Below are positions 5,981-64,000 of a stretch of DNA of 64,000 bases, piece after piece. Both the position numbers and the translations under genes were made by a program. A model generated the notes under the pieces. It did not search any database, was not told the origin of the DNA, and was given only the letters and a program-made list of their open reading frames with translations. Source of the stretch: an uncultured Erythrobacter sp. (GTDB taxonomy: Bacteria > Pseudomonadota > Alphaproteobacteria > Sphingomonadales > Sphingomonadaceae); the NCBI RefSeq assembly GCF_947499705.1, contig NZ_CANMPJ010000001.1, positions 1,399,501 through 1,463,500 on the forward strand, given 5' to 3'. The first letter of the stretch is position 1. Each line of letters starts with the position of its first letter.

Positions 5981-5990
5981 GCCACCCAGA

Positions 5991-7469: not shown

Positions 7470-9049
7470 TAGTGCTCGCCTCCTTCCGAATATTCTCGTT
7501 CGGCGGGCAAATCGTCTCCATGGTGGTCAGTGTGTTCGACGGCGTTGGCGATCTCTGCGCGAGGCGTGCCAACTTCAAGCTGGCTATCGCTCTGAGGAGC
7601 CGCCGAAGCGATCCGTGCATCGAGCGCCGCGATGTCGGAGCGCATTGGAGCCAGGAAACTCTCCGGATAAACGCCCATCCAGAGCACTACCGCAGCGATT
7701 GGCGCCATCATGGCCCACTCACGCGGGGAAATGTCGGCCATCGCCGCAGCATCCTCGTTCTTCTGACCGCCGAACGCGACACGGCGGTACAGATACAGCA
7801 TGTAGGCCGCTCCTAGGATAATCCCGGTGGTGGAGATCAAAGCTACAAGGGTCGAGGTCTGATAGATGCCCGCCAGCGACAGGAACTCACCCACGAACCC
7901 GCTCGTCCCCGGCAAGCCGATGCTCGCCATGGTGAACAGCAGGAAGAACAGCGCGTAGTAAGGCATGTTGATGCTAAGCCCGCCATAGCGGTCGATCTCG
8001 CGCGTATGCAGGCGATCATAGATTACACCGACACACAGGAAGAGCGCGCCTGAAACCAGACCGTGCGAGAGCATGACGATCATCGCGCCCTCAAGACCCT
8101 GCACGTTGAAAGCGAACAGGCCCACGGTGACAATCGCCATGTGAGCGACGCTGGAATAGGCGATCAGCTTTTTCATATCGTGCTGAACCAGCGCGACGAG
8201 CGAGGTGTAGACCACCGCAATCATCGACAGGATGAAGACGAACCAGGCGAACTGCGCGCTCGCCTCGGGGAACATCGGCAGGCTGAAACGGATGAAACCG
8301 TAGCCGCCCAGTTTCAGCAGCACGCCAGCCAAGATCACGGACCCTGCAGTTGGTGCCTGAACGTGCGCATCGGGCAGCCAGGTGTGGAACGGCCACATCG
8401 GCACCTTCACCGCAAAACTCGCGAAGAACGCCAACCACAGCCAAGTCTGCGCGCCCGGCGGGAAGTTGTACTGCATAAGCGTCGGAATGTCGGACGTGCC
8501 CGCTTCGGCGACCATCCAGAACATTGCGATCAGCATAAGTACCGAGCCGAACAGCGTGTAGAGGAAGAACTTATAGCTCGCGTAGATACGATTATCCCCG
8601 CCCCACACACCGATGATCAGGTACATCGGGATCAGGCTAGCTTCGAAGAAGATGTAGAACAGAAAGATATCCTGCGCCGCGAAGATGCCGATCATCAGCA
8701 CCTCCATCAGCAGGAACGCGCCCATATATTCGCCAACCCGCTTGGTGATCGAAGTCCAGCTGGCGAGAATGCAGATCGGCATAAGGAACACGCTCAGCAT
8801 GATCAGCATCAGCGCGATCCCGTCGATGCCAAGAGCGTAGCTGAAGCCTGCGAATAGCTCGGCCCGCTCGGTGAATTGCCACTGTGCGCCGCCGATCTCG
8901 TAATTTGCCCAAAGCATGCAACCGAGCACGAAAGTGATCAGCGTCGCACCTAATGCAATTGGCCGCGCAGCGTTGCCTGCGAAGAGACATGCGAGCGCAC
9001 CGACAAACGGCACGAGCATCATGATAGTGAGGATGGGGAAGCCTTCCAT
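7469..9049 (-). CDS. nuoM: NADH-quinone oxidoreductase subunit M
   Basis: Antiporter-like membrane subunit of complex I, 526 residues, with about 14 transmembrane helices. The conserved FEASLIPMYLIIGVWGG (TM5 Glu), KVPMWPFHTWLPDAHVQAPT and HDMKKLIAYSSVAHM motifs are present. It lies 13 nt after nuoL. The C-terminal ~50 residues are hydrophilic and His/Glu-rich (VEHTDHHGDD), beyond the last helix; such tails vary among alphaproteobacteria. No broken motif. Confidence 0.97.
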   Translation of the reverse strand: MEGFPILTIMMLVPFVGALACLFAGNAARPIALGATLITFVLGCMLWANYEIGGAQWQFTERAELFAGFSYALGIDGIALMLIMLSVFLMPICILASWTSITKRVGEYMGAFLLMEVLMIGIFAAQDIFLFYIFFEASLIPMYLIIGVWGGDNRIYASYKFFLYTLFGSVLMLIAMFWMVAEAGTSDIPTLMQYNFPPGAQTWLWLAFFASFAVKVPMWPFHTWLPDAHVQAPTAGSVILAGVLLKLGGYGFIRFSLPMFPEASAQFAWFVFILSMIAVVYTSLVALVQHDMKKLIAYSSVAHMAIVTVGLFAFNVQGLEGAMIVMLSHGLVSGALFLCVGVIYDRLHTREIDRYGGLSINMPYYALFFLLFTMASIGLPGTSGFVGEFLSLAGIYQTSTLVALISTTGIILGAAYMLYLYRRVAFGGQKNEDAAAMADISPREWAMMAPIAAVVLWMGVYPESFLAPMRSDIAALDARIASAAPQSDSQLEVGTPRAEIANAVEHTDHHGDDLPAEREYSEGGEH

Positions 9050-9062
9050 GTCCGCGCGTCCC

Positions 9063-48669: not shown

Positions 48670-49785
48670 ATGACCGGGCTGCTGGCGCGCTACGAGCATT
48701 TGATCGATTGCGGACAGCTCCGCTCTGATCCTGACCAACGCAAAGCGGCTGCTCGGCTTGACGCCCTGCAAAAGGAACTCGAAGCGGATCGTCCCGGCGG
48801 TTTGTTGGCGCAGCTGTTCGCCAAGGGGCCTTCGCGGGCGCAAGGTGTCTACATGTGGGGCGGCGTCGGGCGCGGGAAATCGATGCTGATGGACCTGTTT
48901 CACGAGACGCTTGGCATACCCGAAAAACGCCGCGTCCATTTTCATGCCTTCATGCAAGAAGTCCACGCAATGATGCGCGCCTGGCGAAAAGCCGATCCGG
49001 GCGACCCGATCCCGAATGTTGCGCGCGATATCGCGCAGGATGTCCGTTGCCTGGCATTCGATGAAATGGTGGTGACCAATTCCGCCGACGCGATGATCAT
49101 GAGCCGACTCTTCACGCAGCTCATCCGCGAACAGAATGTCACAATCGTAACAACCTCGAACCGCCCTCCCCGCGATCTTTACAAAGACGGGCTCAATCGC
49201 GAGCACTTCCTGCCGTTCATCGATCTGATCCAGACCGAGCTGGAAGTGGTCGGATTGAATGGTCCCACCGATTACCGGCTCGACCGGATTGGCGACCTTG
49301 CAACATGGCACACACCGCTCGGCGATGCCGCGACCGAGAAAGTGCGTGAGGCATTCTTCCGGCTGACCGACTTTGCACCTGAAGACGCCGCAAACGTGCC
49401 AAGCGAAGAGCTGTCCGTCGGAGGCAACCGCACGCTCCACGTGCCCAAGTCATTGAAAGGTGTCGGTGTCTTCAGCTTCAAGCGGCTGTGCGGAGAGCCG
49501 CGCGGTGCGCCCGACTACCTCGCAATAGCGCAGCATTTTCACACAGTGATTATCGTCGGCATTCCGGAGATGAGCCCGGAAAAGCGGAATGAAGCCGCGC
49601 GGTTCGTGACATTGATCGACGCACTGTATGAAAACCGGGTGAAGCTGTTTGCCACCGCGGCAGCTCATCCCGATGAACTGTACCAATCCGGAGATGGCAG
49701 CTTCGAATTCGAACGCACAACGAGCCGACTGAACGAAATGCAGAGCGACGACTATATGGCGCTAGGCCACGGTCAGGCGGATTAG
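48670..49785 (+). CDS. zapE: Cell division protein ZapE (AFG1-like ATPase)
   Basis: A 371-residue AAA-type ATPase associated with the Z-ring during constriction. The Walker A motif GGVGRGKSMLMDLFH and the Walker B LAFDEMVVTNSADAM with TTSNRPP sensor and LYKDGLNREHFLPFI are as in ZapE/AFG1. It directly follows the thioesterase gene and ends by overlapping the stop of the convergent crotonase gene (TTAG). Confidence 0.94.
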   Translation: MTGLLARYEHLIDCGQLRSDPDQRKAAARLDALQKELEADRPGGLLAQLFAKGPSRAQGVYMWGGVGRGKSMLMDLFHETLGIPEKRRVHFHAFMQEVHAMMRAWRKADPGDPIPNVARDIAQDVRCLAFDEMVVTNSADAMIMSRLFTQLIREQNVTIVTTSNRPPRDLYKDGLNREHFLPFIDLIQTELEVVGLNGPTDYRLDRIGDLATWHTPLGDAATEKVREAFFRLTDFAPEDAANVPSEELSVGGNRTLHVPKSLKGVGVFSFKRLCGEPRGAPDYLAIAQHFHTVIIVGIPEMSPEKRNEAARFVTLIDALYENRVKLFATAAAHPDELYQSGDGSFEFERTTSRLNEMQSDDYMALGHGQAD

Positions 49786-50705
49786 GCCGCAGCGATCCGT
49801 TCTGCGACACGGGCCTGCGCAGCGACAAGGCGGCTCATGACTTTGAGATCCTGCTCGCGGAGTTGCAAGGCAGTGTCGGCCCACAACTCGGTGATGCGGT
49901 TAAGCTCCTCGACGTGGAGGTTCCACACCTGCTTGATCGCGCGCCGTGAGCCAACAAGCCCTGCATGTCGCCGGTCGGAACGCTTGATGAAATCGCGCAC
50001 GGCATTCACGCCGTCGCCCGGTTCGGCAAGCGCATGCACGAGGCCCATCGCGTACATTTGCTCAGCCGTAAATGTCTCATTCGAAACAATAATCCGATCA
50101 GCCATTGCGCTTCCAAGCTTACGCGAAAGAAGCGCATGAGCGCCCATCCCAGGGAACAGCCCGAACATGACTTCGGGAAGGCCAAATGTCGCCTGCCGCT
50201 CGGCCACGATGTAATCGAAGGACAGCAGTGCCTCAAACCCACCGCCCAGCGCAGCTCCTTGGACGAGGCCGACAGTAAGCATCGGAATGTCAAGCGTACG
50301 GATGTTGCGGTCCAGGATTGCGCAGCAGCGATGTCCGTAATTTACCAGACCAACCCGGTCGCCTTCGCGGATCAGCCGCTGAAACAGGGCCAGATCCCCG
50401 CCATAGCAGAATACATCTGGAGACCGGCTGCCAAGCACCAGATAACGCAACGGAATGCGGCCAGGCCCGAACCCGCTGGAAATCAAAGACTGCCAGCTTT
50501 CGAAATCGTCCAGCATGGCGGGAGTGAAGCTTGGACGCCCGTCCGGACTCATAAAAGTCCAGAGGGTCGCGGAACGATCATCGTAAAGTACGTCTAGTTC
50601 TTGGAGAGATAAAAGCTCTTGGGGAATTGCGATGTGTAGCGCACTTTCCGCCACCAACTCATCATCGCTGGTCAAGGGGATTGCCTTGCTAGCTGAGCTA
50701 TCCAT
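49782..50705 (-). CDS. RpfF-like crotonase (possible diffusible-signal-factor synthase)
   Basis: A 307-residue crotonase-fold protein. The region VQGAALGGGFEALLSFDYIVAERQATFGLPEVMFGLFPGMGA is almost a textbook RpfF motif, seen here by its key residues: oxyanion-hole GGG, Glu158 (GGFEA) and Glu178 (LPEVMF), 20 residues apart as the two catalytic glutamates of RpfF. RpfF enzymes act as both thioesterase and dehydratase on 3-hydroxyacyl-ACP to make cis-2-unsaturated fatty-acid signals; enoyl-CoA hydratase activity is the alternative. The N-terminal ~60 residues are longer than in simple hydratases, again RpfF-like. It lies 198 nt downstream of the XrtA amidotransferase gene, and its stop overlaps zapE's. 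Confidence 0.78.
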   Translation of the reverse strand: MDSSASKAIPLTSDDELVAESALHIAIPQELLSLQELDVLYDDRSATLWTFMSPDGRPSFTPAMLDDFESWQSLISSGFGPGRIPLRYLVLGSRSPDVFCYGGDLALFQRLIREGDRVGLVNYGHRCCAILDRNIRTLDIPMLTVGLVQGAALGGGFEALLSFDYIVAERQATFGLPEVMFGLFPGMGAHALLSRKLGSAMADRIIVSNETFTAEQMYAMGLVHALAEPGDGVNAVRDFIKRSDRRHAGLVGSRRAIKQVWNLHVEELNRITELWADTALQLREQDLKVMSRLVAAQARVAERIAAA

Positions 50706-50903
50706 TAATCTATTCTCCGATGCGACCCGAAGTCATCCGAGAAATATTGCCCCCGAATGATCAAACAGCCTTTTTGGCTCCGTTATGGAGGAAACTAGGC
50801 GACAGGGGCGCGGAATAGCAAATGTTAAATTTCCGTTATCATCCGACCTGAGTCTCATTTCGGGCCAACAGTGACGCCGTGACGTCACCCTCATGTTATC
50901 CGG
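50706..50903. promoter_or_regulatory. Upstream region of the RpfF-like gene
   Basis: A 198-nt gap between the amidotransferase stop and the RpfF-like start. It holds the perfect palindrome GTGACGTCAC (50879-50888), with a partial copy GTGACG just upstream (50871-50876), and an AT-rich stretch near 50822-50840 where a promoter could sit. The palindrome lies close to the amidotransferase stop, so it could belong to its terminator or to an operator for the RpfF-like gene. Confidence 0.4.
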
Positions 50904-52802
50904 TCAAGCGGACACGCCGAGACGTTCGAGAGACTTTTCAAGCATTATCAACTGCCAAAGCACTCGCGAGTGATCAAAACGACCAGTTATGTGATCATCC
51001 GCCATCTTGGAAAGAGCGCTCGGTTCGAAGAAACCCGTTTTTACAAGTTCATCGCTCTGCGAGATTTCACGCACTTGCTTTGAGAGCGGTCCGCGCATCC
51101 ATTGGCCGATTGGTGTGACGAATCCCTGCTTCGGTCGATATAGGATGTCGCGGGGCAGATATCGCTCCATGCACTTCTTCAGCAGGTATTTGCCGGTACT
51201 GCCATGGACCCGCATGTTTTCGGGGAGAGTCGCCGCAAATTCGACAAGGCGATGGTCAAGCAACGGCTCGCGCGCTTCCAAGCTCACCGCCATACTGGTG
51301 CGATCGACCTTCGTCAGAATGTCGCCGGGCAGCCAGAATTTCAGGTCGGCATATTGCGCCCGGTCGAGCCCGCTGCGCGCAGGCGCACTGCGCATCAACC
51401 GGATCAGTTCATCTTCCGAACGGTGACCGCCCAAGTTCTTTGAGAAGGAATCGGAATAGAGCGCTGCACGCGCTTCAGGGGTCGTTACAGACAGGCCTCT
51501 CGCATACCCTTCCTCACCGCTTTCCGAGAGGGCTAGCAAGGTCGCCTTTGCCCGGAGCGGGCGCGGCGCCCAATCAGCCTTTGGCCAGAGCCTGCCAAGC
51601 GTGCCGAACAGAGAGCCGCGCAAACCGGAAGGAAGCAATGAACGCACCCGTTCTTCATTGTGGTGGAACACCTGCCGGCGATACCCGGCAAAGGCTTCGT
51701 CGGCACCATCGCCGGACAGTGCAACAGTTACCTTTTCCCGTGCGAGTTGACACACCCGCCATGTCGGTAGCGCCGAAGCATCGGCAAAGGGCTCATCGAA
51801 CATGGCTGCGAGTTGGTTGATCGCGTGAAAATCATCCTGACCGACCGTGCGGGCTTGATGCGATGTGCCAAACTTTTCCGCGACTTGTTTGGCGTAGCTG
51901 GTTTCATCGAGCGCCTCGACATCGAAACCAATCGAGCACGTCTGCACCGGATTTGCGCTGGCTTCGCTCATCAATGCGACAACGCTGGACGAATCGACAC
52001 CGCCGGAGAGAAACGCGCCGAGCGGCACGTCGGCGACCATTCGCGATTGCACTGCGTCGCGCATCAAATGGACGAGCTCGGCAGAAAGGTCCGCTTCGCC
52101 GCCCTTTGCGCGGTTGGAGAAATCGATGTCCCACCAACTTTTGGGACCGCCGGGCGCCTTGCCCTGCTCCAGCAGCATGAAATGGCCCGCCGGGAGCTTC
52201 TCGACCCCGCTCAGGATCGAATGCGTATCCGGCACATAGCCCCATGTAAGATACGCATCGAGCGCCTCCGGATTGACCCGGCGGCGCAGCAGCGGATGCG
52301 CGAGAAGCCCTTTGAGCTCGGATGCGAAGGCCAGGCTACCATCGGACAGTCGAGCCATGAAGAGCGGCTTCACCCCAAAGCGATCGCGAGCGAGCAGAAG
52401 CTGGCGTTTATCGAGATCGTATAGCGCGAAAGCGAACATGCCATGCAAGCGATCCAGGCAATTCACGCCCCAGCGCTGCCACGCGGCCAGAATAACCTCG
52501 GTGTCGCCCCCGGTCTTGAAACGCGCGCCAGCCTTTTCAAGCTCAGCACGCAGCTCGCGGAAGTTGTATATCTCACCATTGAAGACGATCACTGCCCGGC
52601 CATCGGCGGAGTGCATTGGCTGCGGTGATCCTTCGAGATCGATGACCGACAGGCGCCTGTGCCCCAGCCCGATGCCAAGGTCGGTCCACACCCCGGCCCC
52701 GTCCGGCCCGCGGTGCACCATCGCATCGCACATGCGTTCTACCCGGTTCGGATCAACCGGTTTGGGCGTTTCAGCATGAAAGAGTCCGGCAATCCCGCAC
52801 AT
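50904..52802 (-). CDS. XrtA/PEP-CTERM system amidotransferase (asparagine synthase-like)
   Basis: A 632-residue glutamine-dependent amidotransferase with an Ntn glutaminase domain, beginning MCGIAGLF with catalytic Cys2, and an ATP-dependent synthetase domain with LSGGVDSSSVVAL (PP-loop). The HRRLSVIDL, FNGEIYNF and KPLFMARLSDGSLAFASELK segments are those of exosortase A-associated amidotransferase 1 rather than AsnB; it presumably amidates sugar residues of the polysaccharide. It lies 12 nt after exosortase A, the last member of the main run. Confidence 0.9.
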   Translation of the reverse strand: MCGIAGLFHAETPKPVDPNRVERMCDAMVHRGPDGAGVWTDLGIGLGHRRLSVIDLEGSPQPMHSADGRAVIVFNGEIYNFRELRAELEKAGARFKTGGDTEVILAAWQRWGVNCLDRLHGMFAFALYDLDKRQLLLARDRFGVKPLFMARLSDGSLAFASELKGLLAHPLLRRRVNPEALDAYLTWGYVPDTHSILSGVEKLPAGHFMLLEQGKAPGGPKSWWDIDFSNRAKGGEADLSAELVHLMRDAVQSRMVADVPLGAFLSGGVDSSSVVALMSEASANPVQTCSIGFDVEALDETSYAKQVAEKFGTSHQARTVGQDDFHAINQLAAMFDEPFADASALPTWRVCQLAREKVTVALSGDGADEAFAGYRRQVFHHNEERVRSLLPSGLRGSLFGTLGRLWPKADWAPRPLRAKATLLALSESGEEGYARGLSVTTPEARAALYSDSFSKNLGGHRSEDELIRLMRSAPARSGLDRAQYADLKFWLPGDILTKVDRTSMAVSLEAREPLLDHRLVEFAATLPENMRVHGSTGKYLLKKCMERYLPRDILYRPKQGFVTPIGQWMRGPLSKQVREISQSDELVKTGFFEPSALSKMADDHITGRFDHSRVLWQLIMLEKSLERLGVSA

Positions 52803-52814: not shown

Positions 52815-53846
52815 CTAGCCGATTGCAGCCGGGGCGACAATCGCGGCAGTGATCCCCGTTGCGATGGCTAGAGCGATGATTGCGGCAAGGATGGCGACCG
52901 GACTTGCGTTGCTCTTCGCTGTCGATAAGGCCAGTGGGAGGGTGTCGACCTGCTCGACTGCCCAGCCATATTCATCGGGTTCGCGCTCGAAGAAGCGCCA
53001 CGCACCGGCGAGTACAAGCGCAACCACGATTGCGAAGAATATCCATCCGTAGAAGATGTGATCAAACCCAGCGGCGAACTCGACGCCCTGGCTTTGTGCG
53101 ATGAAGATAGTGCCCCACGCCCGGATGCCATTGGCGATGATCGGGATGACGATGGCCGCCATCATGAAGATCGCGCGGCGTGTCCAGCTATCGAAACGGG
53201 TGAAACATACGAGCACTGCCAGCGTGACCATGGCGATCAGGAACTTCACGCCCGAACACGCTTCCGCGACGATGAACAGGCCGACGGGTGTGTTGATGTA
53301 GATCCCATCAATCTCCGCCGGGATCCCGCTCCAATGCGTGAGCGCGATGGCAATGTCGGCAGTGACCATCTGCAAGGGCGGGACGATCTCGTCACCGAAC
53401 GGCACAAGCAAAGCGGCGAAGCACAGCGGCAAGGCCAAAAAGTAAGAGACTCGCAGGCCGAGGATTGCCACAACCGCGCCCTGCACCGCTCCCACTGCGC
53501 CTGCATGAGCGATCAGATTGATGTCGGTGATCCGTCCGATTAGCCAAAGGCCAAGCCCTGCTGCGACCAATCCGACGCCGGGCAACCATGGCTTTGGCGT
53601 GAGTTTGGCCAGCGCATCGAGCTTCATCGCCACCAGCCATCCGATGATGAAGGGGATCAGCAGAATGTGATTGTAGGTGTCGATGTTCCACCATTGATGG
53701 ATCATCTCGCCCCATTCTCGCGCGGCCAGCACCACAAGCGCGAAAATTGAGGCCATGAGCGTCAACAAGGGCACACGCCAAGCTTCGGGCAGACGGTCGA
53801 TAAGGCTGGTCTGCCTCAGTTGGTCGAGCGTCGATTCAGGCTGCAT
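52815..53846 (-). CDS. xrtA: Exosortase A
   Basis: Integral-membrane transpeptidase that cuts PEP-CTERM proteins at the cell surface. The 343-residue protein has 8-9 hydrophobic segments. The catalytic triad is seen as Cys197 (VAEACSGVKFL), Arg242 (IANGIRAWG) and His263 (GFDHIFYGW). XrtA proteins of many relatives carry a C-terminal EpsI domain (DUF3485) of about 200 residues; here the sequence ends after the last helix at residue 343 and no separate EpsI gene is seen. The start overlaps the glycosyltransferase stop by 11 nt. Confidence 0.93.
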   Translation of the reverse strand: MQPESTLDQLRQTSLIDRLPEAWRVPLLTLMASIFALVVLAAREWGEMIHQWWNIDTYNHILLIPFIIGWLVAMKLDALAKLTPKPWLPGVGLVAAGLGLWLIGRITDINLIAHAGAVGAVQGAVVAILGLRVSYFLALPLCFAALLVPFGDEIVPPLQMVTADIAIALTHWSGIPAEIDGIYINTPVGLFIVAEACSGVKFLIAMVTLAVLVCFTRFDSWTRRAIFMMAAIVIPIIANGIRAWGTIFIAQSQGVEFAAGFDHIFYGWIFFAIVVALVLAGAWRFFEREPDEYGWAVEQVDTLPLALSTAKSNASPVAILAAIIALAIATGITAAIVAPAAIG

Positions 53847-55062
53847 CGCGCGTTTCGTTGGGGGTGGCTGTCACCAATTGATCAAGCGGCGAAAGCATCG
53901 CGTCCCAGGCGTGATTGGTCAGCACGAATTCCCGGGCCGTCTCACCCATTCGCTCTGCGGAATTGCGATCCGTCCAAATCGCATCGAACCGCGCTAGCAT
54001 GGCTTGAGCATCGGCGGTGCTGACCATCCAGTGCTCGTCATCGACAGCTGTTATGCCGGTCGCGGCTTCAGGCGTAAGCAGGACCGGACGGGCCATAGCC
54101 ATCGCTTCGAGCACTTTGTTCTGAACGCCTCGAGCGATCAGCAGCGGTGCGAGCACACAATCTGCTCCAACAATGAACGGTCGGACGTCGGGAACTTCGC
54201 CCCAGATTGTAACGCCTTCCGTGTCTTTATGCGCTTTCAAGGCCGCTGTCGGATTGCGCCCCACGACGTGGAAATGCGCATCGGCGTAGCGCTCCCTCAG
54301 CGCAGGAAGCAGGTGCTCAATTGCCCACAACACCGCTTGCTCGTTTGGACGATAGTCCATCTGGCCGGTGAAGGTGAAATGCGGCCCCTCAGTTCCCGCA
54401 AGAACCGGATGCGGGACCACGGCATCGGGATCGAAAAAGGCAGCATCGATTCCGTTTCCGATCACCTGAACGTCGGCCATCGATGGTACTTGTAGCCGCT
54501 TCCGGAACAACGCTGCTTCGGCGTCGCTAATCAGGATCGTCGCATCGGCTCTCCGTGCGAGCCGTTCTTCCTCTTTCGCCAGCAAGCGCCCTTCCCGGCT
54601 ATTGAGCCAGACGCGTTCTCCCCCTTCGGCGTAGTTCTCAAACTTGGCGCTATCGACGTCGCAAAGGTCGATTACCACGCACCCGGCGAAGTCTTCTGGG
54701 ACATATTGCCCCATCTGGCCCGAGAAAATCACGATGGCGTCGATATTCTGGCGGACGAGCGTGTCACGGACCCATTTTTCAAGCCGAGCGCTATGGAAGG
54801 CTGTCAAACTGACAGGCTTGCCCGCGAGCACGGCCTCCACACCTGCAAGCACCAGGGGCTTGTTGCGATTGACGATACAATGGGTCGCAGCGATCTGAGA
54901 TAATTCACTTTCGCCCGCCCGATCTTCATCGCTTTCAGCGAAGCACCCAACATGCACGCGGCCAATCTGAGCCAGCTTCTTCAGCAGATGATGCGCGCGA
55001 ATCTTATCACCGCGGTTCGGCGGGAATGGGACGCGATGCGCAAAGAAAAGGATATCGCCCAT
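53836..55062 (-). CDS. XrtA system-associated glycosyltransferase (TIGR03087 type)
   Basis: From ATG 55062 (MGDILFFAHRVPFPPNRGDKIRAHHL, key residues HRVPFPPNRGDK) it has 408 residues and belongs to the GT4/GT-B group. The FPPNRGDKIR loop, the FTGQMDYRPNEQAVLW strand and VHPLLIARGVQNKVLEAMAMARPV-like region near VLAPLLIARGVQNK with the acidic E are as in TIGR03087 enzymes. It adds a sugar to the exopolysaccharide on the inner face of the membrane. The start overlaps the FemAB-like stop by one base (TGATG). Confidence 0.9.
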   Translation of the reverse strand: MGDILFFAHRVPFPPNRGDKIRAHHLLKKLAQIGRVHVGCFAESDEDRAGESELSQIAATHCIVNRNKPLVLAGVEAVLAGKPVSLTAFHSARLEKWVRDTLVRQNIDAIVIFSGQMGQYVPEDFAGCVVIDLCDVDSAKFENYAEGGERVWLNSREGRLLAKEEERLARRADATILISDAEAALFRKRLQVPSMADVQVIGNGIDAAFFDPDAVVPHPVLAGTEGPHFTFTGQMDYRPNEQAVLWAIEHLLPALRERYADAHFHVVGRNPTAALKAHKDTEGVTIWGEVPDVRPFIVGADCVLAPLLIARGVQNKVLEAMAMARPVLLTPEAATGITAVDDEHWMVSTADAQAMLARFDAIWTDRNSAERMGETAREFVLTNHAWDAMLSPLDQLVTATPNETRDAA

Positions 55063-56123
55063 CAGGCCAAACCGCGCGCAATCCATGGCCCGACCAAATT
55101 CGCGACGGGCAATGGCAGCTTCTTCCAGCGTTCGATCTTGGATTGATAGGCTTCACTGGTCGGATCGACGTCGCGCGCTTCGGCGCCTGGCGCGGTCCAC
55201 TCACCATACGTAAGAGGCTCGGGATCGAAGCCCCAGTTCTTCTTGAAATTGTAAGGACCGCTTCCGGTCTTGGAACGCCCAAAGTCGAACCGTTCCATCC
55301 CCTTGCGCCGGGCATGGAGCATCAGTTCGTAATACATCAGCTCGTTGGCACGGGCACCGCGCGCAGCACAACTGCCTCCGCCCCAAAAGGGCATGACGGC
55401 GCCGTTGTGGTAGAAGGACAGCACGCTCGCGATCGGCTTGCCATCCTTGAACACGGTCAGGATGTCGCTGCTGTCCGGAAACGCATCGAGCATCGCCGCG
55501 AAAAGCTTCTTCGGGAATACCGGCGTGCCGAGATTGCGCACGCTCTCGCTGTAGACCGCGTAATGATCGGCGAGGTCTTGCGTTGACCGCCCTACCCGCA
55601 CCGGCAACTCAAACTTCAACCCCTTGCGAACTTCTGCGCGAGCCTTGCGCGGGATTGCGAGCAGTTCAGCCTCGTCATCTGCGGCGAGTTCGCGTTCGAA
55701 GCCACAATGCTTTTCGTCCCATCGCTTCCAGTCAACCGGGATCGGTCCACCGCGCAGGTCCACGCTTGGGAAGCTGTTGCGGATGGCGAACTCTTCAGCG
55801 CCACGTCCAAGCAAATCTGCAGCTCTGTCGTTCACTGCACAAATCCCGCCGCCGACACCGAAGCCGCTGGAAACCAACGCTGGTGGAAATAGCAGGGACC
55901 GCGACTGAGTCAGCGGAAGCCAGCCCGTGATCACACCCAACTGCTCGCAAACTAGACCAGTCGCGCGTTGCCCTGTCCCCGCCTCGACACCCAGCAACCA
56001 CGCTGGGCGATGGAACAGGCTCGCGCGCTGCTCGGCGACGAATCCCTCGATGCGCCGCACCTGCGCTGCATCACGCAGATCGACTTGCGAAACCTTCTGT
56101 GTCGTATCGACAGGCGCGTTCAC
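55062..56123 (-). CDS. FemAB-like XrtA/PEP-CTERM system protein
   Basis: I start it at GTG 56123, which overlaps the deacetylase stop (GTGA) and gives 353 residues; the frame upstream is unconserved. It has a duplicated GNAT-like FemAB organisation, with LFHRPAWLLGVEAGTG, an EFAIRNSFPSVDLRGGP strand, VLSFYHNGAVMPFWGGGS and MERFDFGRSKTGSGPYNFKKNWGFDPEPL (key residues FDFGRSK and KNWGF) near the C-terminus, as in TIGR03019. The role, probably acyl or aminoacyl transfer to the polymer, is inferred from the family. Confidence 0.88.
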   Translation of the reverse strand: MNAPVDTTQKVSQVDLRDAAQVRRIEGFVAEQRASLFHRPAWLLGVEAGTGQRATGLVCEQLGVITGWLPLTQSRSLLFPPALVSSGFGVGGGICAVNDRAADLLGRGAEEFAIRNSFPSVDLRGGPIPVDWKRWDEKHCGFERELAADDEAELLAIPRKARAEVRKGLKFELPVRVGRSTQDLADHYAVYSESVRNLGTPVFPKKLFAAMLDAFPDSSDILTVFKDGKPIASVLSFYHNGAVMPFWGGGSCAARGARANELMYYELMLHARRKGMERFDFGRSKTGSGPYNFKKNWGFDPEPLTYGEWTAPGAEARDVDPTSEAYQSKIERWKKLPLPVANLVGPWIARGLA

Positions 56124-57028
56124 GCGGCGATCTCCTCCGAAGAGGAGTCTTCGCCAAGTTCGATAGCCTTTGCTGCTTCGCGATGCGCAACCATGTCCAT
56201 CCGGCCCCAGCGGAATTCGTGAACGAGATCGCGGAGCTTGCCTGCCATCTGTTCCAAGCCAGCGTAGTGCCGCAGCTTCGACCGCATTGGAGCATTGGGG
56301 ACACGCGGTTGGTCGGGATCGACCTCCCACGGATGGAAATAGAACACCGCCGGACGCTCATCGCGGCGGTTCACTTGCCGGATCGCCCAGCGGGAGAACG
56401 CGTACGGAAGCACGCGGAAGAACCCGCCGCCACCTGCGGCAACACGGCGACCGCCTAGCATGGCTGTCGTGACCGGAAGCTCCACCAGATCGGACCAAGG
56501 AATGGGCCGGAATGAAAAGCGCGGAGCTTCCGGCCAACCATAGTGATCATGGGCTATCGGGGCGACGCTGGAGGAATAGACATAGCCCTGCTCCGCCAGT
56601 TCCATGAATGCCCACGGCGTGCGCTGATCGATAGAGAAACTCGGCGCGCGGTAGCCGGTTACCTTTTGGCCTGAGCAATCCTCGATGATCTCGCGTGCCT
56701 TGCGAATGTCCTCGGCAAAGGTCGCGCGGTCGAACGTGAAGACCCGAGCATGGTCATAGCCATGGCTGGCCAGTTCATGCCCCGCTTCGGCTATGCGCCG
56801 GATCATGGCGGGATGGCGCTTAGCAACCCAACCCAAGGTGAAAAACGTCGCGTGCACGTCGGCTTCGGCAAACAGATCGAGTATCCGATCGACGTTGCGT
56901 TCGACGCGCGTCTTGATCCCGTCCCAGTCGTCGCGCTCGATTACGTTCTCGAACGCGCCAACCTGAAACCAGTCTTCGACATCGACCGACAGGCCGTTGA
57001 TGATCGCCGGGCTATCGCCGTCAGTCAT
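56120..57028 (-). CDS. XrtA system polysaccharide deacetylase
   Basis: A 302-residue NodB-fold deacetylase, probably removing acetyl groups from the polysaccharide. The catalytic-site motifs SVDVEDWFQVGAFE (Asp) and HELASHGYDHARV (His ligands), TGYRAPSFSID and the histidine in FYFHPWEVDPDQPR match the TIGR03006 XrtA deacetylase group. The FYFHPWE segment is typical of this clade. No signal peptide is evident, as in relatives. It starts 2 nt after the ATPase stop. Confidence 0.93.
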   Translation of the reverse strand: MTDGDSPAIINGLSVDVEDWFQVGAFENVIERDDWDGIKTRVERNVDRILDLFAEADVHATFFTLGWVAKRHPAMIRRIAEAGHELASHGYDHARVFTFDRATFAEDIRKAREIIEDCSGQKVTGYRAPSFSIDQRTPWAFMELAEQGYVYSSSVAPIAHDHYGWPEAPRFSFRPIPWSDLVELPVTTAMLGGRRVAAGGGGFFRVLPYAFSRWAIRQVNRRDERPAVFYFHPWEVDPDQPRVPNAPMRSKLRHYAGLEQMAGKLRDLVHEFRWGRMDMVAHREAAKAIELGEDSSSEEIAA

Positions 57029-57030
57029 TG

Positions 57031-58194
57031 TCAGGCGGCCTCGCGGGACGTGTCTTCCTCAAGCCATTCGATCAGCATCGTCAGCACATGACGGAAGCTC
57101 TGCTCCTGTTCTTCGAGACGCTGTTCGATGCGAACGAGAGCCTCGTTGACGTCGGCTTCGGATGCGCCCGCTGGCACGGCCTCAGGCGTATGGCCCTTGG
57201 GCGCTCCAGCAGCCTGAAGTTCGCTGATCGCTGCCTCCAACTCTGCAGTGCGTTCGTCACGCTGCGCAAGCAGTGCTGCGACTTCGCTCGCCGGGACGCT
57301 GTCGATATCGCTCTGAGTCGCTGGGCTTGCCGCTTCGGGTTCAAGGCTGAGCGGGCTCGCCTGCTTGTGCGCGCCGCGCGATTGGTCAGCACTCATCTCT
57401 TCGATGACCGCTTGCAGCATAGCAACGGTGAGCACGTCCTGCTCTTCGATTGCACCAAGCAGCAGCACCCGGTTCATCACCTGGTTCACCCGGCGAGGAA
57501 TGCCATCAGTGGCCTCATAGAGCGCGGGAAGCAGACCCTCATCCAGTTCCGGACGTCCGCTCCACCCGACATGGGCGAGGCGGTGCCGGATGTAGTCTTC
57601 GACTTCATCGGCATCGAGCGCTTCAAGGTGGTGCGAAGCAATGATCCGCTGACGCAACTGGTCCAGATCAGGATGATTGGCGAGCGTGCGGCGGAACTCG
57701 GGCTGGCCTAGCAAAAGGCTTTGCAGCAGCGGGTGCGAACCGAGTTGAAAATTCGACAGCATCCGCAGCTCTTCAAGCGCGGTGAAGTCGAGGTTCTGAC
57801 ACTCGTCGACAACCAACAGGCAGCGGCGACCGGCGCGCGCTTCGTCCTGCAGAAAGCGTTCGATTGCCCCCAACGCGCCCGCTTTGTCGTGCCCTTCCAC
57901 GATCAACCCAAAGCTCTGGGCGACCACGTGGATCAACTCTTCGCCGTCCAGGGCGGTTGTGACCACCTGGCCGACGGTCAGAGCATCTGGATCGACCTGC
58001 TCCATCAGATGCGCAACCAGCGTCGACTTACCCGCACCGACCTCGCCGGTGATGACGATGAAGCCCTCACCCTGATTCAGGCCGTATCCGAGATACGACA
58101 TCGCCTTTTTGTGGCTTGCGCTCTCGAAATAGAATTGCGGGTCCGGCGTTAGCTGGAAAGGGCGTCCGCTGAAGCCGTAAAATTGATCGTACAT
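57031..58194 (-). CDS. XrtA/PEP-CTERM system-associated ATPase
   Basis: A 387-residue ATPase of the ExeA/TIGR03015 family. Walker A is GEVGAGKSTLVAHL, Walker B CLLVVDECQNLD, and the LGQPEFRRTLANHPDLDQLRQRI region, QRIIASHHLEALDADEVEDYI and GIPRRVNQVMNRVLLLG follow. Family members are about 270-300 residues; here the C-terminal ~110 residues form an extra, polar, coiled-coil-like extension (ERTAELEAAISELQAA, EALVRIEQRLEEQEQSF). The family's role in polymer assembly is not known in detail. Confidence 0.9.
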   Translation of the reverse strand: MYDQFYGFSGRPFQLTPDPQFYFESASHKKAMSYLGYGLNQGEGFIVITGEVGAGKSTLVAHLMEQVDPDALTVGQVVTTALDGEELIHVVAQSFGLIVEGHDKAGALGAIERFLQDEARAGRRCLLVVDECQNLDFTALEELRMLSNFQLGSHPLLQSLLLGQPEFRRTLANHPDLDQLRQRIIASHHLEALDADEVEDYIRHRLAHVGWSGRPELDEGLLPALYEATDGIPRRVNQVMNRVLLLGAIEEQDVLTVAMLQAVIEEMSADQSRGAHKQASPLSLEPEAASPATQSDIDSVPASEVAALLAQRDERTAELEAAISELQAAGAPKGHTPEAVPAGASEADVNEALVRIEQRLEEQEQSFRHVLTMLIEWLEEDTSREAA

Positions 58195-58214
58195 GTCCTG
58201 TTGGGCTCCGTGGG

Positions 58215-59834
58215 TCAGAAATCGTAGCGCAGGCCGAGCAGCGCGGTGGCGAAAGCAAAGTCTTCTGCGCTGAACTCACTGTCGAAATAGTCGACGGCGA
58301 GTGCCGCGCGGGCGGATAGCTTGCTGGTGATCGAACGGTTGTAGGCTGCCGAAGCACCGACAGCCGTTACATCACCGTTGTCGCCGCCACTCTTGAACCA
58401 GTTGACGTAGGCGTTGGTGGCGAACGAAGCGCTGCGACCGATTGGGCGAGTCAGCGCTGCGTTGATGTAGTAGCTTTCGTCAGTGATCCCGTCGGCTGCG
58501 GCGAGCACCGTTCCGGCGGCGGCGATGAACTCGCGCTCATCATAGCCGGCACCGATTGCAGCGGTGGCCTGGCCAATCTGGCGTTGGTAGCTGGCATTGA
58601 CACCGCGACCGCGGAACGCTGCCGAGCGGACGGAACCAATTGTACCAATCGAGGTCGAACCATCTTCGCCGGTGACAAGACCGCCGAAATCACCCGTTAC
58701 CGGGTTCCGGACCGCATCGAAGTCGCTCGACAGGCCCGACAGCGAGTTATTGAGCACACCGCCAAAGCCGGTCAGGCCGTCATAGACCGAGATATTGAGC
58801 GCGCTGCGTTCGTTCGGGACGTAGGAAAAGCTGCCGTAATAGGTGGTAGAATCGTAGCGACGTCCGACCGTTGCGGCTAGGGACGTGCGCGAACTTGGGT
58901 TCCACACCACCCCGACATCCCAGATCAGGCCGTCGACATCGAAGGCGATCTGACGCGGAACCGAATCGTCGGTGACAAAACGGCCACTGTTGTCGAGGAC
59001 AGGGTTGCCATCGACATCACGCAGCGCATCGCGGCTGGAAATCTCGACGTCTTCGTAACCTACTCCGCCGACCACCGCGAAGTTGTCGCTGAGCGGAACG
59101 GTGACATCACCGCGCACGTAAAGGTCACGCACGCGTTGATCTAGGTTGGAAATGTCTTCCTGGAACGCACCGGCTGTTACGCCGATGCCAACTGGCAGAC
59201 CATCACCCGGGCGCGTGCCCGCGCGGATCTGACCGGTGTAGGTCACACTGTCATCGAACACATCGACGGGGTTGCCCTCGGTATCGATTATTGCGTTGTC
59301 GGTTTCGAACCGGTTGTACCCGACACGGGCAACGCCCGTAATGTCGACGGCACCTGCGCGTGTGGCGATGCTCGGTCCGGCATAGACGCTGTAAATCTGG
59401 CTTTCCGCATCTTCGGCCACCAGCGGATTGGTAGAAACTCCGCCGCCGCTATCAACCCGGGTACGCGCCGCAAGCGCGCCCGCCTCAAGCGTGAGCGCTT
59501 GCGGCACGATTGAGACATAGCCGCGGGCAACGCCGCTGATCGTGTCGCTATCGACCTGATCATCGCCGTAGCTGATGTTGCGTTCGTAGCGCAGCGAGAC
59601 CGAGGCACCGCTGTTGCGCCCTTGCGCGTTCAGATCGACACCTGCGGCAACCTGAGTGAAGGTCACAACGTCATTGCCAGGCGAAAGCTCGGCGCTCAGC
59701 ACCTGGCTCACTTCGATGTAAGGTTGCACGGCGACGGCAGGACCATCGCGCTCACCCTGATTTTGGGCAGCGGCAGGCGCCGCGACAACGACTGTCGCAA
59801 GGCCAACCAGCAAAGCTGCTTTAAGGACACGCAT
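58215..59834 (-). CDS. XrtA system outer-membrane beta-barrel (TIGR03016 type)
   Basis: From ATG 59834, with GAGGGAG eight bases upstream, it has 539 residues starting MRVLKAALLVGLATVVVAAPAAAQ, a signal peptide cleaved after AAAQ. The mature part is rich in Tyr, Gly, Asn and Asp with alternating hydrophobic beta-strand patterns over its whole length, and it ends FATALLGLRYDF, the aromatic C-terminus of an outer-membrane barrel. Earlier starts at 59843 (GTG) and 59840 (ATG) overlap the kinase gene. It is likely the channel of the polymer exporter. Confidence 0.88.
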   Translation of the reverse strand: MRVLKAALLVGLATVVVAAPAAAQNQGERDGPAVAVQPYIEVSQVLSAELSPGNDVVTFTQVAAGVDLNAQGRNSGASVSLRYERNISYGDDQVDSDTISGVARGYVSIVPQALTLEAGALAARTRVDSGGGVSTNPLVAEDAESQIYSVYAGPSIATRAGAVDITGVARVGYNRFETDNAIIDTEGNPVDVFDDSVTYTGQIRAGTRPGDGLPVGIGVTAGAFQEDISNLDQRVRDLYVRGDVTVPLSDNFAVVGGVGYEDVEISSRDALRDVDGNPVLDNSGRFVTDDSVPRQIAFDVDGLIWDVGVVWNPSSRTSLAATVGRRYDSTTYYGSFSYVPNERSALNISVYDGLTGFGGVLNNSLSGLSSDFDAVRNPVTGDFGGLVTGEDGSTSIGTIGSVRSAAFRGRGVNASYQRQIGQATAAIGAGYDEREFIAAAGTVLAAADGITDESYYINAALTRPIGRSASFATNAYVNWFKSGGDNGDVTAVGASAAYNRSITSKLSARAALAVDYFDSEFSAEDFAFATALLGLRYDF

Positions 59835-59839
59835 GATCA

Positions 59840-60832
59840 TCACTCCCTCTCGCCATAGTCGCCAAACTGGCGACCTGACGGACTAAACCGTGTGGCGTTG
59901 AGCAGCAGCTTGATGTCGGGGCATGCCGACAAGAGCTGCTGCGCGTCTTCGAGCGCTGCACGGCTGGTTTCATCGGCACGCACGACCAGCAAAGCCTGCC
60001 CGACATGGGCGGCAAGCTCGGCTGCCGGTGAGGCAGCGAGCGCTGGTGGCGTGTCGAAGATTACGAAACGATTGGGCGCGCCGCGCGTGAGGCGATCGAG
60101 CACCTCTCCCGTGCGAGCGCTGGCAAGGTATTCTGCGTCTCGTGCGCTGCTGGAACCAGCAGGCAGGACGAACAGGCCGTCGATATCGGTTCCGATTGCG
60201 AGGCGCTCTGGATGCGCATTGTCATCGACGAGCGTATCCATCAGGCCCTTACCAGCATCGATCCCGAGGCGGCGAGCAACCGATGGGTTCAATACGTCTG
60301 CGTCTACCAAGACGACCTCGACATCGCGCTCTGCGGCGAGCGCAATTGCCAAGTTGATGGCGCAATAAGTTTTGCCTTCGCCAGGAAGTGGCGAGCAGAC
60401 CAGGATGCGGCGAGCGGCTGCGTCCGAAGAAGCGCGCGCATCGGCAAGCAATTCGCGTTTAACGATGCGGAATTCTTCGAGCAGGCCAGTGACCTGATCT
60501 TCAGGCACAATCAGGCCTTCTTCGCGCAGGATTTCGCGATCGACCTTCTGATGTGGTCCACTGAGAACGACCTTGCGTTCCTGTGGCTTCACCGCGGGCT
60601 GAGGCGCAGCAGTTTGAGCTGGCTCTGGCATGACCGGTTCTGTGGGAACGGCATGCCGTTGTGAAACCTCGGTAGCATCGCGCACGGCGCGCGGCACGCG
60701 TGGTTCGACGTCGGGCAAGTTCGTTGGAACCGCTGCTGGTCCCATATTGTCGAGCCCGAACATCTGGTCGGCACGCTCGAACAGAGATGTCCGCTTCGAA
60801 CCCTTCCGGTTGATTTTGCTTTGCTCGGTCAT
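59840..60832 (-). CDS. XrtA-associated tyrosine autokinase
   Basis: BY-kinase regulating polymer chain length. From ATG 60832 (MTEQSKINRKGSKRTS) it has 330 residues: a variable N-terminus, then Walker A (PLPGEGKTYCAINLA), Walker A' (EVVLVDADVLNPSVARRLG), Walker B-like RFVIFDTPPALA, and a short C-terminal tail with one tyrosine (GDYGERE). BY-kinases usually end in a cluster of tyrosines; here the tail has only one. The stop overlaps the beta-barrel region start. Confidence 0.9.
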   Translation of the reverse strand: MTEQSKINRKGSKRTSLFERADQMFGLDNMGPAAVPTNLPDVEPRVPRAVRDATEVSQRHAVPTEPVMPEPAQTAAPQPAVKPQERKVVLSGPHQKVDREILREEGLIVPEDQVTGLLEEFRIVKRELLADARASSDAAARRILVCSPLPGEGKTYCAINLAIALAAERDVEVVLVDADVLNPSVARRLGIDAGKGLMDTLVDDNAHPERLAIGTDIDGLFVLPAGSSSARDAEYLASARTGEVLDRLTRGAPNRFVIFDTPPALAASPAAELAAHVGQALLVVRADETSRAALEDAQQLLSACPDIKLLLNATRFSPSGRQFGDYGERE

Positions 60833-60842
60833 GTCCCTCTCC

Positions 60843-62369
60843 TCACGCAACCGTTCCGACAGAGACAATTTCGATGGTCAGCAGAATGCCGAACACAGCG
60901 ACCAATCCGGCGCAGGCTCCCGCAAACTGTTTGAACCTGCGTCGTTCAATCACCCGTGCGGCGTCCGAGATAGTGAGTGAGATCGAGCCGATGACCGGCA
61001 GATCAAACCCGCGCTCCAGCTTTTGCGGCGTGGCAAAGGTCGAGCGCAGTTGGCTCATTGCATAAGCAACACCAGCTCCGATCCCGAGACCGACAAGCAA
61101 CACGCCGAACAACAGCAGCGGCCGGTTTGGTGCAGCCGGGCTTTGAGGGACCACCGGCGGATCGATCAGATCGAACTTGAACTGGCTGGTTTCGTCTTCG
61201 ACATTGCCGCGCGTGCGGATCGCTTCGCGGTCCTGCAGCAGCTTTTCGTAGTTCTGACGAAGTACGTCGTAATCGCGGCTGATACGATTGGCTTCGGCAG
61301 CAATTTCCGGTTCCGACGCCTGGCTGGCCATCAACGAAGCGGTCTGGGACTGGATCGCGGCGCGGCGTGCCTGAAGTGATTCAACCCCAGCCTGTCGGTC
61401 GGCCTTGATCGCCAGCAGCGAGGTGTAGGCAGGATTGGGCTGGCCATTGATACTTTCAGGACCGGCGGCAGCCACCTGACGCGTAAGAATTTCGACCTGC
61501 TTGGTCGTCGCAACGACGTCGGGATGCCCGTCCTTCAGTCCGCGTGAACGCAACTCAGCCAGTTGCGATTGCGCCTGAGCCAAAGCAGCACGAGGACCGA
61601 CCGCATTCTGACCGCTGGACGCAATCGTACGCGGCGTGCCGGACAATTGCCCATCGATTGCAGCCAAAGCGCTTTGCGCCGCAGCGAGATCGGCATCGAT
61701 ATCACGCAGTTCAGTGCGAGCTTGCTGGATCTTGGTCGAAAGAGTCTGCGAACCACCGATCAGCTCGGGATACTGCGCTTCGAATGCGAGGCGGCGCTCT
61801 TCGGCGGCCTCAAGCTCTTGTTTGCGTTCTTCGAGTTGCTCGTCGAGTTCCGAGATTGCGCGCGTAACGCCTACCTTATTGCCGGCAATGTGCTCTTCGC
61901 GGAAGATATCGAGCATCTTCTGCACGACGTTGCGCGCAAGGACAGCGTTCTGTGCGTCGCTTAGGTCACCCTTGCCCACTTCGGCTGTGATTTCGAAGAG
62001 GTTGTCCTCTTCGCTCTTCACGGTGACTTTCTCGCTAAGCGCAGCAACGGCGGCGTTCATTTCGCCGCTGGTGTTGATGTTCTCGCCAAGCTTGGTCGAT
62101 TTGATCACGCGTTCGAGATTGACGTTGCTCGCAAGCGTCTGACGGACGCGCTGGATCTCTTCCTTGCCGTCTCCAGCAATTCCGAGCTGTTCCGACAGCA
62201 CATCATCAACATCGACATAGATACGCGCTTTGGATTCGTAGGAGTTGGGGATCATCGCGATCACCAGCCACCCTAGCAGGCACACGCCCCACGCGACCGC
62301 AATCGCGAGCCAGCGGCGGTGCCAGACCGAATAAAGCGCTGTGCGCAGTTCTTCGAAGATTTCGCTCAT
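60843..62369 (-). CDS. XrtA system polysaccharide chain-length determinant
   Basis: A 508-residue Wzz-type copolymerase. The N-terminal helix (RWLAIAVAWGVCLLGWLVIAMIP) is followed by a periplasmic coiled-coil region (residues ~150-400, e.g. EEQLEERKQELEAAEERRLAFE by its key EERKQELEAAEE), and two helices near the C-terminus (LLLFGVLLVGLGIGAG and FAGACAGLVAVFGILLTIEIV). The periplasmic part sets modal length. It lies 15 nt after the export gene; the separate kinase gene supplies the cytoplasmic domain. Confidence 0.9.
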   Translation of the reverse strand: MSEIFEELRTALYSVWHRRWLAIAVAWGVCLLGWLVIAMIPNSYESKARIYVDVDDVLSEQLGIAGDGKEEIQRVRQTLASNVNLERVIKSTKLGENINTSGEMNAAVAALSEKVTVKSEEDNLFEITAEVGKGDLSDAQNAVLARNVVQKMLDIFREEHIAGNKVGVTRAISELDEQLEERKQELEAAEERRLAFEAQYPELIGGSQTLSTKIQQARTELRDIDADLAAAQSALAAIDGQLSGTPRTIASSGQNAVGPRAALAQAQSQLAELRSRGLKDGHPDVVATTKQVEILTRQVAAAGPESINGQPNPAYTSLLAIKADRQAGVESLQARRAAIQSQTASLMASQASEPEIAAEANRISRDYDVLRQNYEKLLQDREAIRTRGNVEDETSQFKFDLIDPPVVPQSPAAPNRPLLLFGVLLVGLGIGAGVAYAMSQLRSTFATPQKLERGFDLPVIGSISLTISDAARVIERRRFKQFAGACAGLVAVFGILLTIEIVSVGTVA

Positions 62370-63217: not shown

Positions 63218-64000
63218 CTAAACCAGCATCTCTGCTGCTGGGCCATGGCCAAGGAATGCCGAGGGGCTGGAGGTCGCGCCGTAAGCGCCTGCGCAAAACA
63301 CCGCGACGATGTCTCCAACGCCGGCACGCGGCATTATGGCCTGATCGGCGAGCCGATCGAGCGGAGTGCAAAGACACCCGACAATGTTAACCACATCGTC
63401 CGCTTCCGCGCCGAACTTCGAAGCAATCGCCACCGGGTAATTGCGGCGAACAACAGTGCCGAAATTGCCAGAAGCAGCGAGTTGGTGATGCAAGCCCCCG
63501 TCAGTCACGAGGTAAGTTGTACCGTGGCTCTCCTTACGGTCGATCACGCGGCAGAGATAAACCCCTGCTTCGCCTACGAGATAGCGCCCGAGCTCGAGGC
63601 ACAACTCGGTATTGGTCAGCGCTTCTGGAAGGTCGGCGACGTATCCGTGAAGCGCCTGTCCGATAGCTTTGAGATCTAGCGGCTCGTCACCAGGGAAATA
63701 GGGAATTCCAAATCCGCCGCCCATATTGAGCTTGGGCAGCATGGTCCCGATCGAATCGGACAATTCCGCCGCCAGTTTCAGCACGTTACCTTGGGTTTCA
63801 ATGATCGCATCTGCGCTCAAGGCCTGGCTGCCGGTGAAGATATGCAGTCCGCGCCATTCAGCACCTTCAGCAATGACCTGCTTGGCAAGAGAAGGCACCT
63901 TATCCGCGTCCACACCGAACTGCTTGGCTCCCCCGCCCATCTTCATGCCCGAGCCCTTTAGCTCAAAGGATGGATTGACCCGGATGGCGATGCGCGGCGC
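63218..64000 (-). CDS. XrtA-associated PLP-dependent decarboxylase, 5' end cut by window edge
   Basis: Fold-type III PLP decarboxylase (alanine-racemase-like barrel, ornithine/diaminopimelate decarboxylase family) found in exosortase A loci. The reading frame is open to base 64000, so the N-terminus with the PLP lysine is outside the window; 260 residues are visible. Visible features are RIAIRVNPSFELKGSG, then the MKMGGGAKQFGVDAD and HIFTGSQ motifs, NMGGGFGIPYF (PLP phosphate glycine loop), ELCLELGRYLVGEAG (Glu and Arg) and CAGAYGATSSPSAFLG. The exact reaction in the polysaccharide pathway is not known. Confidence 0.9.
   Translation of the reverse strand, partial: APRIAIRVNPSFELKGSGMKMGGGAKQFGVDADKVPSLAKQVIAEGAEWRGLHIFTGSQALSADAIIETQGNVLKLAAELSDSIGTMLPKLNMGGGFGIPYFPGDEPLDLKAIGQALHGYVADLPEALTNTELCLELGRYLVGEAGVYLCRVIDRKESHGTTYLVTDGGLHHQLAASGNFGTVVRRNYPVAIASKFGAEADDVVNIVGCLCTPLDRLADQAIMPRAGVGDIVAVFCAGAYGATSSPSAFLGHGPAAEMLV

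Follow-up and report, generated by a model that had tools for sequence, protein, structure and literature searches.

Xanthomonas/Xylella and Burkholderia/Cronobacter are the best-studied cases of signaling by fatty acids of the diffusible signal factor (DSF) family. According to the accessible parts of two papers, rpfF is convergent with rpfR in Burkholderia and with the rpfGHC operon in Xanthomonas, and RpfR is described as a soluble protein with N-terminal FI and PAS domains (PMC6361424, PMC4504480). In the accessible text of a 2022 census of inputs to cyclic di-GMP (c-di-GMP) signaling, RpfR is the DSF-type receptor, and the pairing of RpfR with the Burkholderia diffusible signal factor (BDSF) is apparently widespread in Beta- and Gammaproteobacteria (PMC8846402). 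In B. cenocepacia, the Bep polysaccharide is also under the control of RpfR, according to the available portion of another report (PMC9684580). Judging by its listings, we found no report of an RpfF system in sphingomonads or Erythrobacter in the open-license literature of PubMed Central. Here we describe a putative DSF-type circuit that we encountered in a 64,000-nucleotide stretch (“the window”) of contig NZ_CANMPJ010000001.1 from an uncultured Erythrobacter sp. The window encodes an RpfF-type (DSF-synthase-like) crotonase of 307 amino acids at 49782..50705, on the minus strand; the initial annotation had given no strand. The host genome is in two contigs (2.7 and 0.95 Mb), and among named relatives, those closest to it are Erythrobacter (93% to a metagenome-assembled genome). 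Erythrobacter longus DSM 6997 and Erythrobacter sp. NAP1 have the synthase gene as well.

We propose that this synthase belongs to a DSF-type circuit whose receiver has a new architecture: the synthase would act on c-di-GMP through a membrane protein with GGDEF and EAL domains. From the sequence comparisons, we give this explanation a probability of roughly 0.6. The putative receiver, or partner, is a protein of 657 amino acids that is encoded outside the window (C1:1399501-1463500), at G000:C1:1684730-1686700, about 235 kb from the synthase gene. We identified it as a full-length homolog of an EAL protein from a plasmid of Sphingomonas parapaucimobilis (38.8% identity over 637 amino acids, membrane domain included). 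It has a predicted N-terminal membrane domain with about five hydrophobic segments, which matches no family in Pfam or NCBIfam; the only matches in these databases to the partner are to GGDEF and EAL, and its GGDEF, EAL, and DDFGTGYSS motifs are intact. Pfam finds no PAS domain in the partner from the window's genome, and the Methylobacterium partner has one after its membrane part.

The initial annotation described the window's protein as a crotonase with two catalytic glutamates 20 residues apart and an FPGMGA motif, and both the open reading frame (ORF) and our alignment agree. Glu158 and Glu178 (codons at 50232..50234 and 50172..50174, minus strand) align with the catalytic Glu141 and Glu161 of RpfF from Xanthomonas campestris pv. 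campestris (Xcc). The motif comprises residues 184-189 (50139..50156, minus strand; all of these coordinates were computed from the ORF), and its Met187 corresponds to Met170 of Xcc. The accessible parts of two papers assign catalysis to Glu141 and Glu161 of RpfF, thioesterase activity to Gly86/Gly138, and a place in the pocket or in docking to Met170, Trp258, Leu136, Gly137, Gly138, Gly85, Leu276, and Gly169 (PMC9864630, PMC9040811). All 11 of the documented active-site or pocket positions of Xcc RpfF are identical in the window's synthase (Gly102, Gly103, Leu153, Gly154, Gly155, Glu158, Glu178, Gly186, Met187, Trp275, and Leu293). Both catalytic glutamates are kept in 95/95 RpfF-like rows of the alignment; among 7 rows for crotonases from the host, several of which are fragments, the two positions are kept in 3 and 4.

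Other comparisons point the same way. The window's synthase scores 344.7 bits against NCBIfam PRK08788, well above the curated cut-off of 177; RpfF from B. cenocepacia scores 412.1 bits. Its best matches among PDB sequences are four RpfF/DfsA entries (7zq7, 3m6m, 6dgn, and 5fus; E = 4.6e-53 to 4.9e-40), and the first crotonase after these has E = 5.5e-16. It is the only RpfF-like gene that we found in the host genome, where the remaining ten matches have E = 3.4e-10 or worse. The AlphaFold (AF2) model of the synthase has a mean pLDDT (predicted local distance difference test) of 76.4; it is weak in three parts (residues 1-21, 98-101, and 177-185), and Glu178 falls in the third. The nearest folds to this model are exactly five RpfF/DfsA entries (Z = 30.3-32.1, with the next crotonase at 25.8), and in Foldseek, RpfF/DfsA proteins take ranks 1-12. 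In a quick tree of 102 rows, in which the crotonase branches are very long, the 95 RpfF-like rows are split from the 7 host crotonases, with a Shimodaira-Hasegawa-like approximate likelihood ratio test (SH-aLRT) value of 95 on the branch above the 95. The earlier assignment of the protein to the RpfF type, rather than to the housekeeping hydratases, is borne out by the tree, the residues, the PDB matches, and the fold: it is a real relative of the DSF-type synthases.

The partner tracks the synthase across the family. We searched 367 genomes of the window's family, which we take to be the Sphingomonadaceae in the wide sense (Erythrobacteraceae included), for the synthase, and we ran a profile of the partner's membrane domain (A3) on the same genomes. 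The synthase is present in 124 of them, or about a third. The partner domain was found in 147 at E = 1e-8, and we excluded 13 weak cases (E = 3.8e-16 and worse) from the counts; among those listed, the frames of these are mostly 238-407 amino acids, and one of the genomes (G472) has a synthase. We found both proteins in 111 genomes, the synthase only in 13, the partner only in 23, and neither in 220 (odds ratio 82, p = 8e-55). Counting by genus instead (96 genera), the corresponding numbers are 37, 4, 4, and 51. Among genomes whose synthase is at least 44% identical to the window's, 111/113 have the partner, and the two exceptions are G505 (with a 46% synthase) and G554 (an assembly that is 77% complete). 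The other 11 synthase-only genomes encode proteins of 36-41% identity; seven of these are in the tree, where they group with G505 and apart from the clade of the window's synthase. Similarly, a sample of 25 genomes from the genus has 9 with both, 1 with the synthase only (82% complete), 2 with the partner only, and 13 with neither (p = 0.0002), counting as “neither” one genome with a partial partner match at a contig edge.

In close to a quarter of the pairs (29/111), the two genes are adjacent, and all of these pairs are convergent, that is, tail to tail. This RpfR-like organization occurs in 10 genera, and the synthases concerned are 44-60% identical to the window's. In the remaining 82 pairs, the genes do not lie within 5 kb on one contig; the synthases of these pairs have 60-100% identity and come from 27 genera. 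We read 31 convergent junctions (27 of the 29, plus four on plasmids): the stop codons are within 70 bp of each other in all of them, and 17 overlap. On the plasmid from Sphingomonas parapaucimobilis, a synthase homolog (54.6% identity) is convergent with the EAL gene. The same arrangement was seen in 3/3 of the Methylobacterium plasmids that were read (of four found), and the flanking genes differ on one of them. On two Bosea plasmids, one copy of the synthase is adjacent to a partner-type EAL gene and co-directional with it (2/2). A second protein with a partner-type membrane domain adjoins the synthase-partner pair in Bosea RAC05 (L274:8634-10913, plus strand).

On the tree, the partner-adjacent synthases from the window's family and from Methylobacterium form one 52-row clade with the Erythrobacter/Novosphingobium group (SH-aLRT 98, or 94 without the crotonases). 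We will call this the window clade. The Erythrobacter/Novosphingobium synthases are nested inside it (support 99). The Bosea synthases fall outside it on long branches, and we are unsure of the grouping of these partner-linked synthases near the known RpfFs (SH-aLRT 89). The simplest reading is that the pair was ancestrally a two-gene, tail-to-tail cassette and that, in the Erythrobacter/Novosphingobium lineage, a single relocation took the synthase to the end of an exosortase locus, beside an ATPase gene, while the receiver gene stayed elsewhere. Both genes would still have been kept in the genome.

The initial annotation had seen no RpfC or RpfG sensor in the window. This holds, and it extends to the genome as far as the searches for PF13487 and for Hpt domains go. 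HD-GYP (PF13487) has no match in the genome; no other HD family was searched. Three proteins match Hpt: a CheA-like protein, a MASE1-PAS-histidine kinase-REC-Hpt protein, and a small HisKA-REC-Hpt protein. An RpfC-like membrane hybrid kinase with Hpt is not among them. The profile of the RpfC-like input domain gave nothing better than E = 0.67 in the 12 loci fetched from this genome, and the FI domain of RpfR gave nothing better than E = 0.079 in its EAL and Hpt loci; this was a sequence search, and a distant FI-like fold is possible. Orthologs of RpfC, RpfG, or RpfR were not found by these domain searches; the sensor candidate that the genome does encode is the membrane GGDEF-EAL protein.

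In its relatives, the window clade has its genes arranged as in known DSF circuits; the receiver is what differs. Like the RpfF/RpfR (BDSF) system of Burkholderia and Cronobacter, it combines an RpfF-type synthase with a GGDEF-EAL protein, and the genes are convergent in the window's relatives. In contrast to RpfR, which the accessible descriptions give as soluble, the partner is predicted to have a membrane domain; sequence searches show no FI domain in it and, for the window's genome, no PAS domain either. In RpfR, the FI domain binds over the entrance for acyl-acyl carrier protein on the synthase. With the RpfF/RpfC/RpfG system of Xanthomonas, it shares the catalytic and pocket residues of the synthase, a membrane-bound input, and, again in the relatives, convergent genes. 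But our searches of the window's genome gave no RpfC-like kinase and no HD-GYP match, and the partner's membrane input is fused directly to GGDEF-EAL.

For comparison, we read 33 other RpfF-like loci (L197-L221 and L303-L310), of which 25 are from outside the family or are divergent and 8 are from synthase-only genomes within the family. An RpfC-like hybrid kinase is present in 26 of these, and in 24 its gene is tail to tail with that of the synthase, at most about 300 bp away. The kinases that we scanned have HisKA, HATPase, REC, and Hpt domains (5/5). The next gene at the scanned loci encodes a REC-PAS-kinase (L209, L212) or a REC-PAS-GGDEF-EAL protein (L304), and none encodes RpfG. These alphaproteobacterial RpfF-RpfC-like loci resemble the window's system in having an RpfF-type synthase and, at L304, which is from the window's family, an adjacent REC-PAS-GGDEF-EAL gene. 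They differ in that their synthases form separate groups on the tree and in that their sensor is a kinase with REC and Hpt domains.

Given the family, residues, and fold of the synthase, we infer that it would dehydrate 3-hydroxyacyl-acyl carrier protein (ACP) to cis-2-enoyl-ACP, cleave the thioester, and free a cis-2-unsaturated fatty acid. The predicted product would act on its putative cognate receiver, the membrane GGDEF-EAL protein, at the N-terminal membrane domain, and would shift c-di-GMP turnover, in one direction or the other, via the GGDEF and EAL domains. Polysaccharide is a plausible output, by analogy with RpfR. The observations behind this proposal are the homology, residues, and fold of the synthase, its co-occurrence with the partner, their adjacency in relatives, and the nested position of the relocated group on the tree. 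If the proposal is correct, then fatty-acid signaling extends, with a dedicated membrane partner for c-di-GMP, to a large group of environmental bacteria, and one named gene pair allows a direct test of the question.

We also lean, by a little, towards the broader view that DSF-family fatty acids have a new class of receptor, represented by the partner. This would be a third core circuit, with a membrane sensor that is fused to c-di-GMP enzymes and has no kinase relay, carried as a mobile pair in Sphingomonadaceae, Methylobacterium, and (in the other orientation) Bosea. Genomes with only the receiver would then eavesdrop. The asymmetry of the counts is what would be expected of a receiver that also listens to others: the partner occurs alone in 23 genomes, and the reverse almost never occurs in the window clade. 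The asymmetry also allows for a second role of the partner.

Several observations weigh against the proposed circuit. First, the two genes are not neighbors in the window's own genome. Second, the window's synthase scores 202.6 bits against NF053515, the Xanthomonas-type RpfF equivalog, which requires 550 bits. Missing this narrow equivalog tells us little, because RpfF from B. cenocepacia fails it too (188.2 bits). Third, the partner's membrane domain is not clearly homologous to the RpfC-like input domain: the hhalign probability is 0.3%, and with hmmsearch the best E values among 27 sequences are 0.00051 and 0.0038 (10.4 and 7.6 bits). We consider a common origin of the two domains to be unsupported. 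Because the partner shows neither this homology nor an FI domain, its binding of a fatty acid or of the synthase is conjectural. Fourth, the partner turns up in 23 genomes that lack the synthase and so may serve some other function. Fifth, on each of the two Bosea plasmids, the other synthase copy that was read has no EAL gene beside it (a third synthase site, on one of these plasmids, is outside the loci read).

The association itself is also subject to qualifications. A genus-stratified test is significant (p = 2e-10; the 11 informative genera have 38 genomes with both, none with the synthase only, 6 with the partner only, and 30 with neither). It covers the 255 genomes (of 367) whose genus was visible, most of which have an exosortase or a match, and genera are not independent lineages. 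Taking all 19 genera with both states of the synthase, the counts are 53, 6, 15, and 31. Of 24 genomes from outside the family that carry an RpfF-like gene (two sets, of 22 and 2), just one has the partner domain, as a weak match (E = 9.7e-18). The domain was found in 3/4 of the plasmid records searched. From these two results, we take the pairing to be characteristic of the window clade and similar groups rather than of RpfF-like genes as a whole. The partner is associated with the exosortase as well (odds ratio 8.9 in the 367 genomes), so all of these links must partly reflect shared ancestry.

The initial annotation had favored a different output: quorum-type control of the polysaccharide made by the exosortase locus next to the synthase. 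Its placement of the synthase is correct. The locus lies on the same strand and ends 198 bp upstream of the synthase gene with an asparagine-synthase/GATase-7 protein (50904..52802, minus strand; Pfam and synteny), which is preceded by the exosortase (PF09721; 52815..53846, minus strand; the XrtA type is the label of the initial annotation). According to this alternative, a DSF-type signal specifically controls the neighboring polysaccharide, and signal output would be tied to polysaccharide synthesis because the synthase gene is co-transcribed at the end of the locus. A weak consensus scan found no terminator-like or promoter-like site in 49600-51200, which is compatible with co-transcription. 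The placement is also conserved. Among the best 80 of 418 relatives, some of whose contigs end too early to tell, 67 have the asparagine-synthase gene upstream of the synthase and on its strand, at a distance of at most 450 bp in 60 and of about 5.3 kb in seven, all Novosphingobium by title. The exosortase was found in 62 of the 80, and the ATPase gene on the other side of the synthase, a syntenic anchor, in 75. Across the 367 genomes, 112 have both the synthase and the exosortase, 12 the synthase only, 128 the exosortase only, and 115 neither (odds ratio 8.4). The two genes are within 15 kb of each other in 72 of the 87 genomes (of the 112) for which exosortase positions were given. RpfR and Bep in B. 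cenocepacia provide a precedent, as far as the accessible portion of that report goes.

Nevertheless, we think that specific control of this locus is unlikely. The association is an order of magnitude weaker than that of the synthase with the partner. It vanishes within the genus, where 7 of 25 genomes have both, 3 the synthase only, 11 the exosortase only, and 4 neither (Fisher p = 1). In 10 of the 11 exosortase-only genomes, the locus abuts the same ATPase gene and nothing between the two matches the synthase; the contig of the eleventh ends before that point. Conversely, 12/124 synthase-bearing genomes of the family lack the exosortase, and 12 of the 80 relatives have the synthase with neither the exosortase nor the asparagine-synthase gene in the fetched stretch. 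In 11 of these 12, the synthase is preceded, at a distance of 294-2807 bp, by a gene of the type at 63218-63946, and remnants of the locus sometimes lie in between; for the twelfth, L109, there is only 2.4 kb upstream. Furthermore, synthases of 44-59% identity are not near the exosortase in 6/6 placed cases, and these sister lineages keep the synthase beside the partner instead. The within-genus independence and the separate losses rule out XrtA as an obligate partner of the synthase.

Less probable again is a use of the fatty acid other than signaling. The RpfF-like enzyme might make it for lipid modification or as a diffusible metabolite, with the GGDEF-EAL protein answering to the state of the membrane. 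The 23 genomes with the partner alone would fit this, and in other bacteria there are RpfF-like domains that are joined to iron-containing redox enzymes (PF14518) or lie next to them. However, we saw no such fusion in the loci read from the window clade, and the constant companion of the synthase is a c-di-GMP enzyme, in relatives with the layout of rpfF and rpfR as the accessible sources describe it. Finally, a housekeeping or beta-oxidation enoyl-CoA hydratase, as the crotonase fold and the generic name of PRK08788 could suggest, is very improbable given the separation from the 7 host crotonases on the tree, the sporadic distribution of RpfF-like genes in the class (24/385 genomes), and the equivalents of Trp258 and Gly86, which are conserved in the RpfF-like rows and are mostly changed or gapped in the host crotonases (several of them fragments).

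The gene on the other side of the synthase (48670..49785, plus strand) encodes an ATPase, which we take to be AFG1/ZapE-like. It is convergent with the synthase, and the ends of the two ORFs overlap by 4 bp. The remaining genes of the exosortase locus (53836..62369, minus strand) encode, according to Pfam, a glycosyltransferase, an acetyltransferase, a polysaccharide deacetylase, two ATPases, and Wzz, along with one protein that belongs to no Pfam family. In Erythrobacter ani and E. rubeus (L089 and L121, at about 8600-10000), there is no exosortase match, yet an AAA-ATPase gene of the locus is kept (45% identity to the window's copy); it lies between the 63218-type gene and the synthase. In two Novosphingobium loci (L152 and L156, at 4700-10000), genes that we read from the sequence as HlyD/ATP-binding cassette (ABC) efflux-like are found between the asparagine-synthase gene and the synthase.

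RpfF-like proteins elsewhere show some other arrangements. In two other families of the order, the RpfF-like domain is fused to a C-terminal PF14518 domain (L220:7019-8911, minus strand, and L221:6820-8886, plus strand), and an RpfC-like kinase is encoded about 2 kb away. On a Methylibium plasmid (L235), the RpfF-like protein and the PF14518 redox enzyme are encoded by separate neighboring genes. Two RpfF-like proteins (L201:7151-9373 and L203:6910-8880, both minus strand) have N-terminal extensions of about 370-460 amino acids, in which Pfam identifies no family besides crotonase domains. Lastly, two E. coli plasmid records of 99.8 kb, one of which is typed as IncK2/Z, carry a divergent RpfF-like gene downstream of ABC-transporter genes (L238:5980-6813, plus strand).

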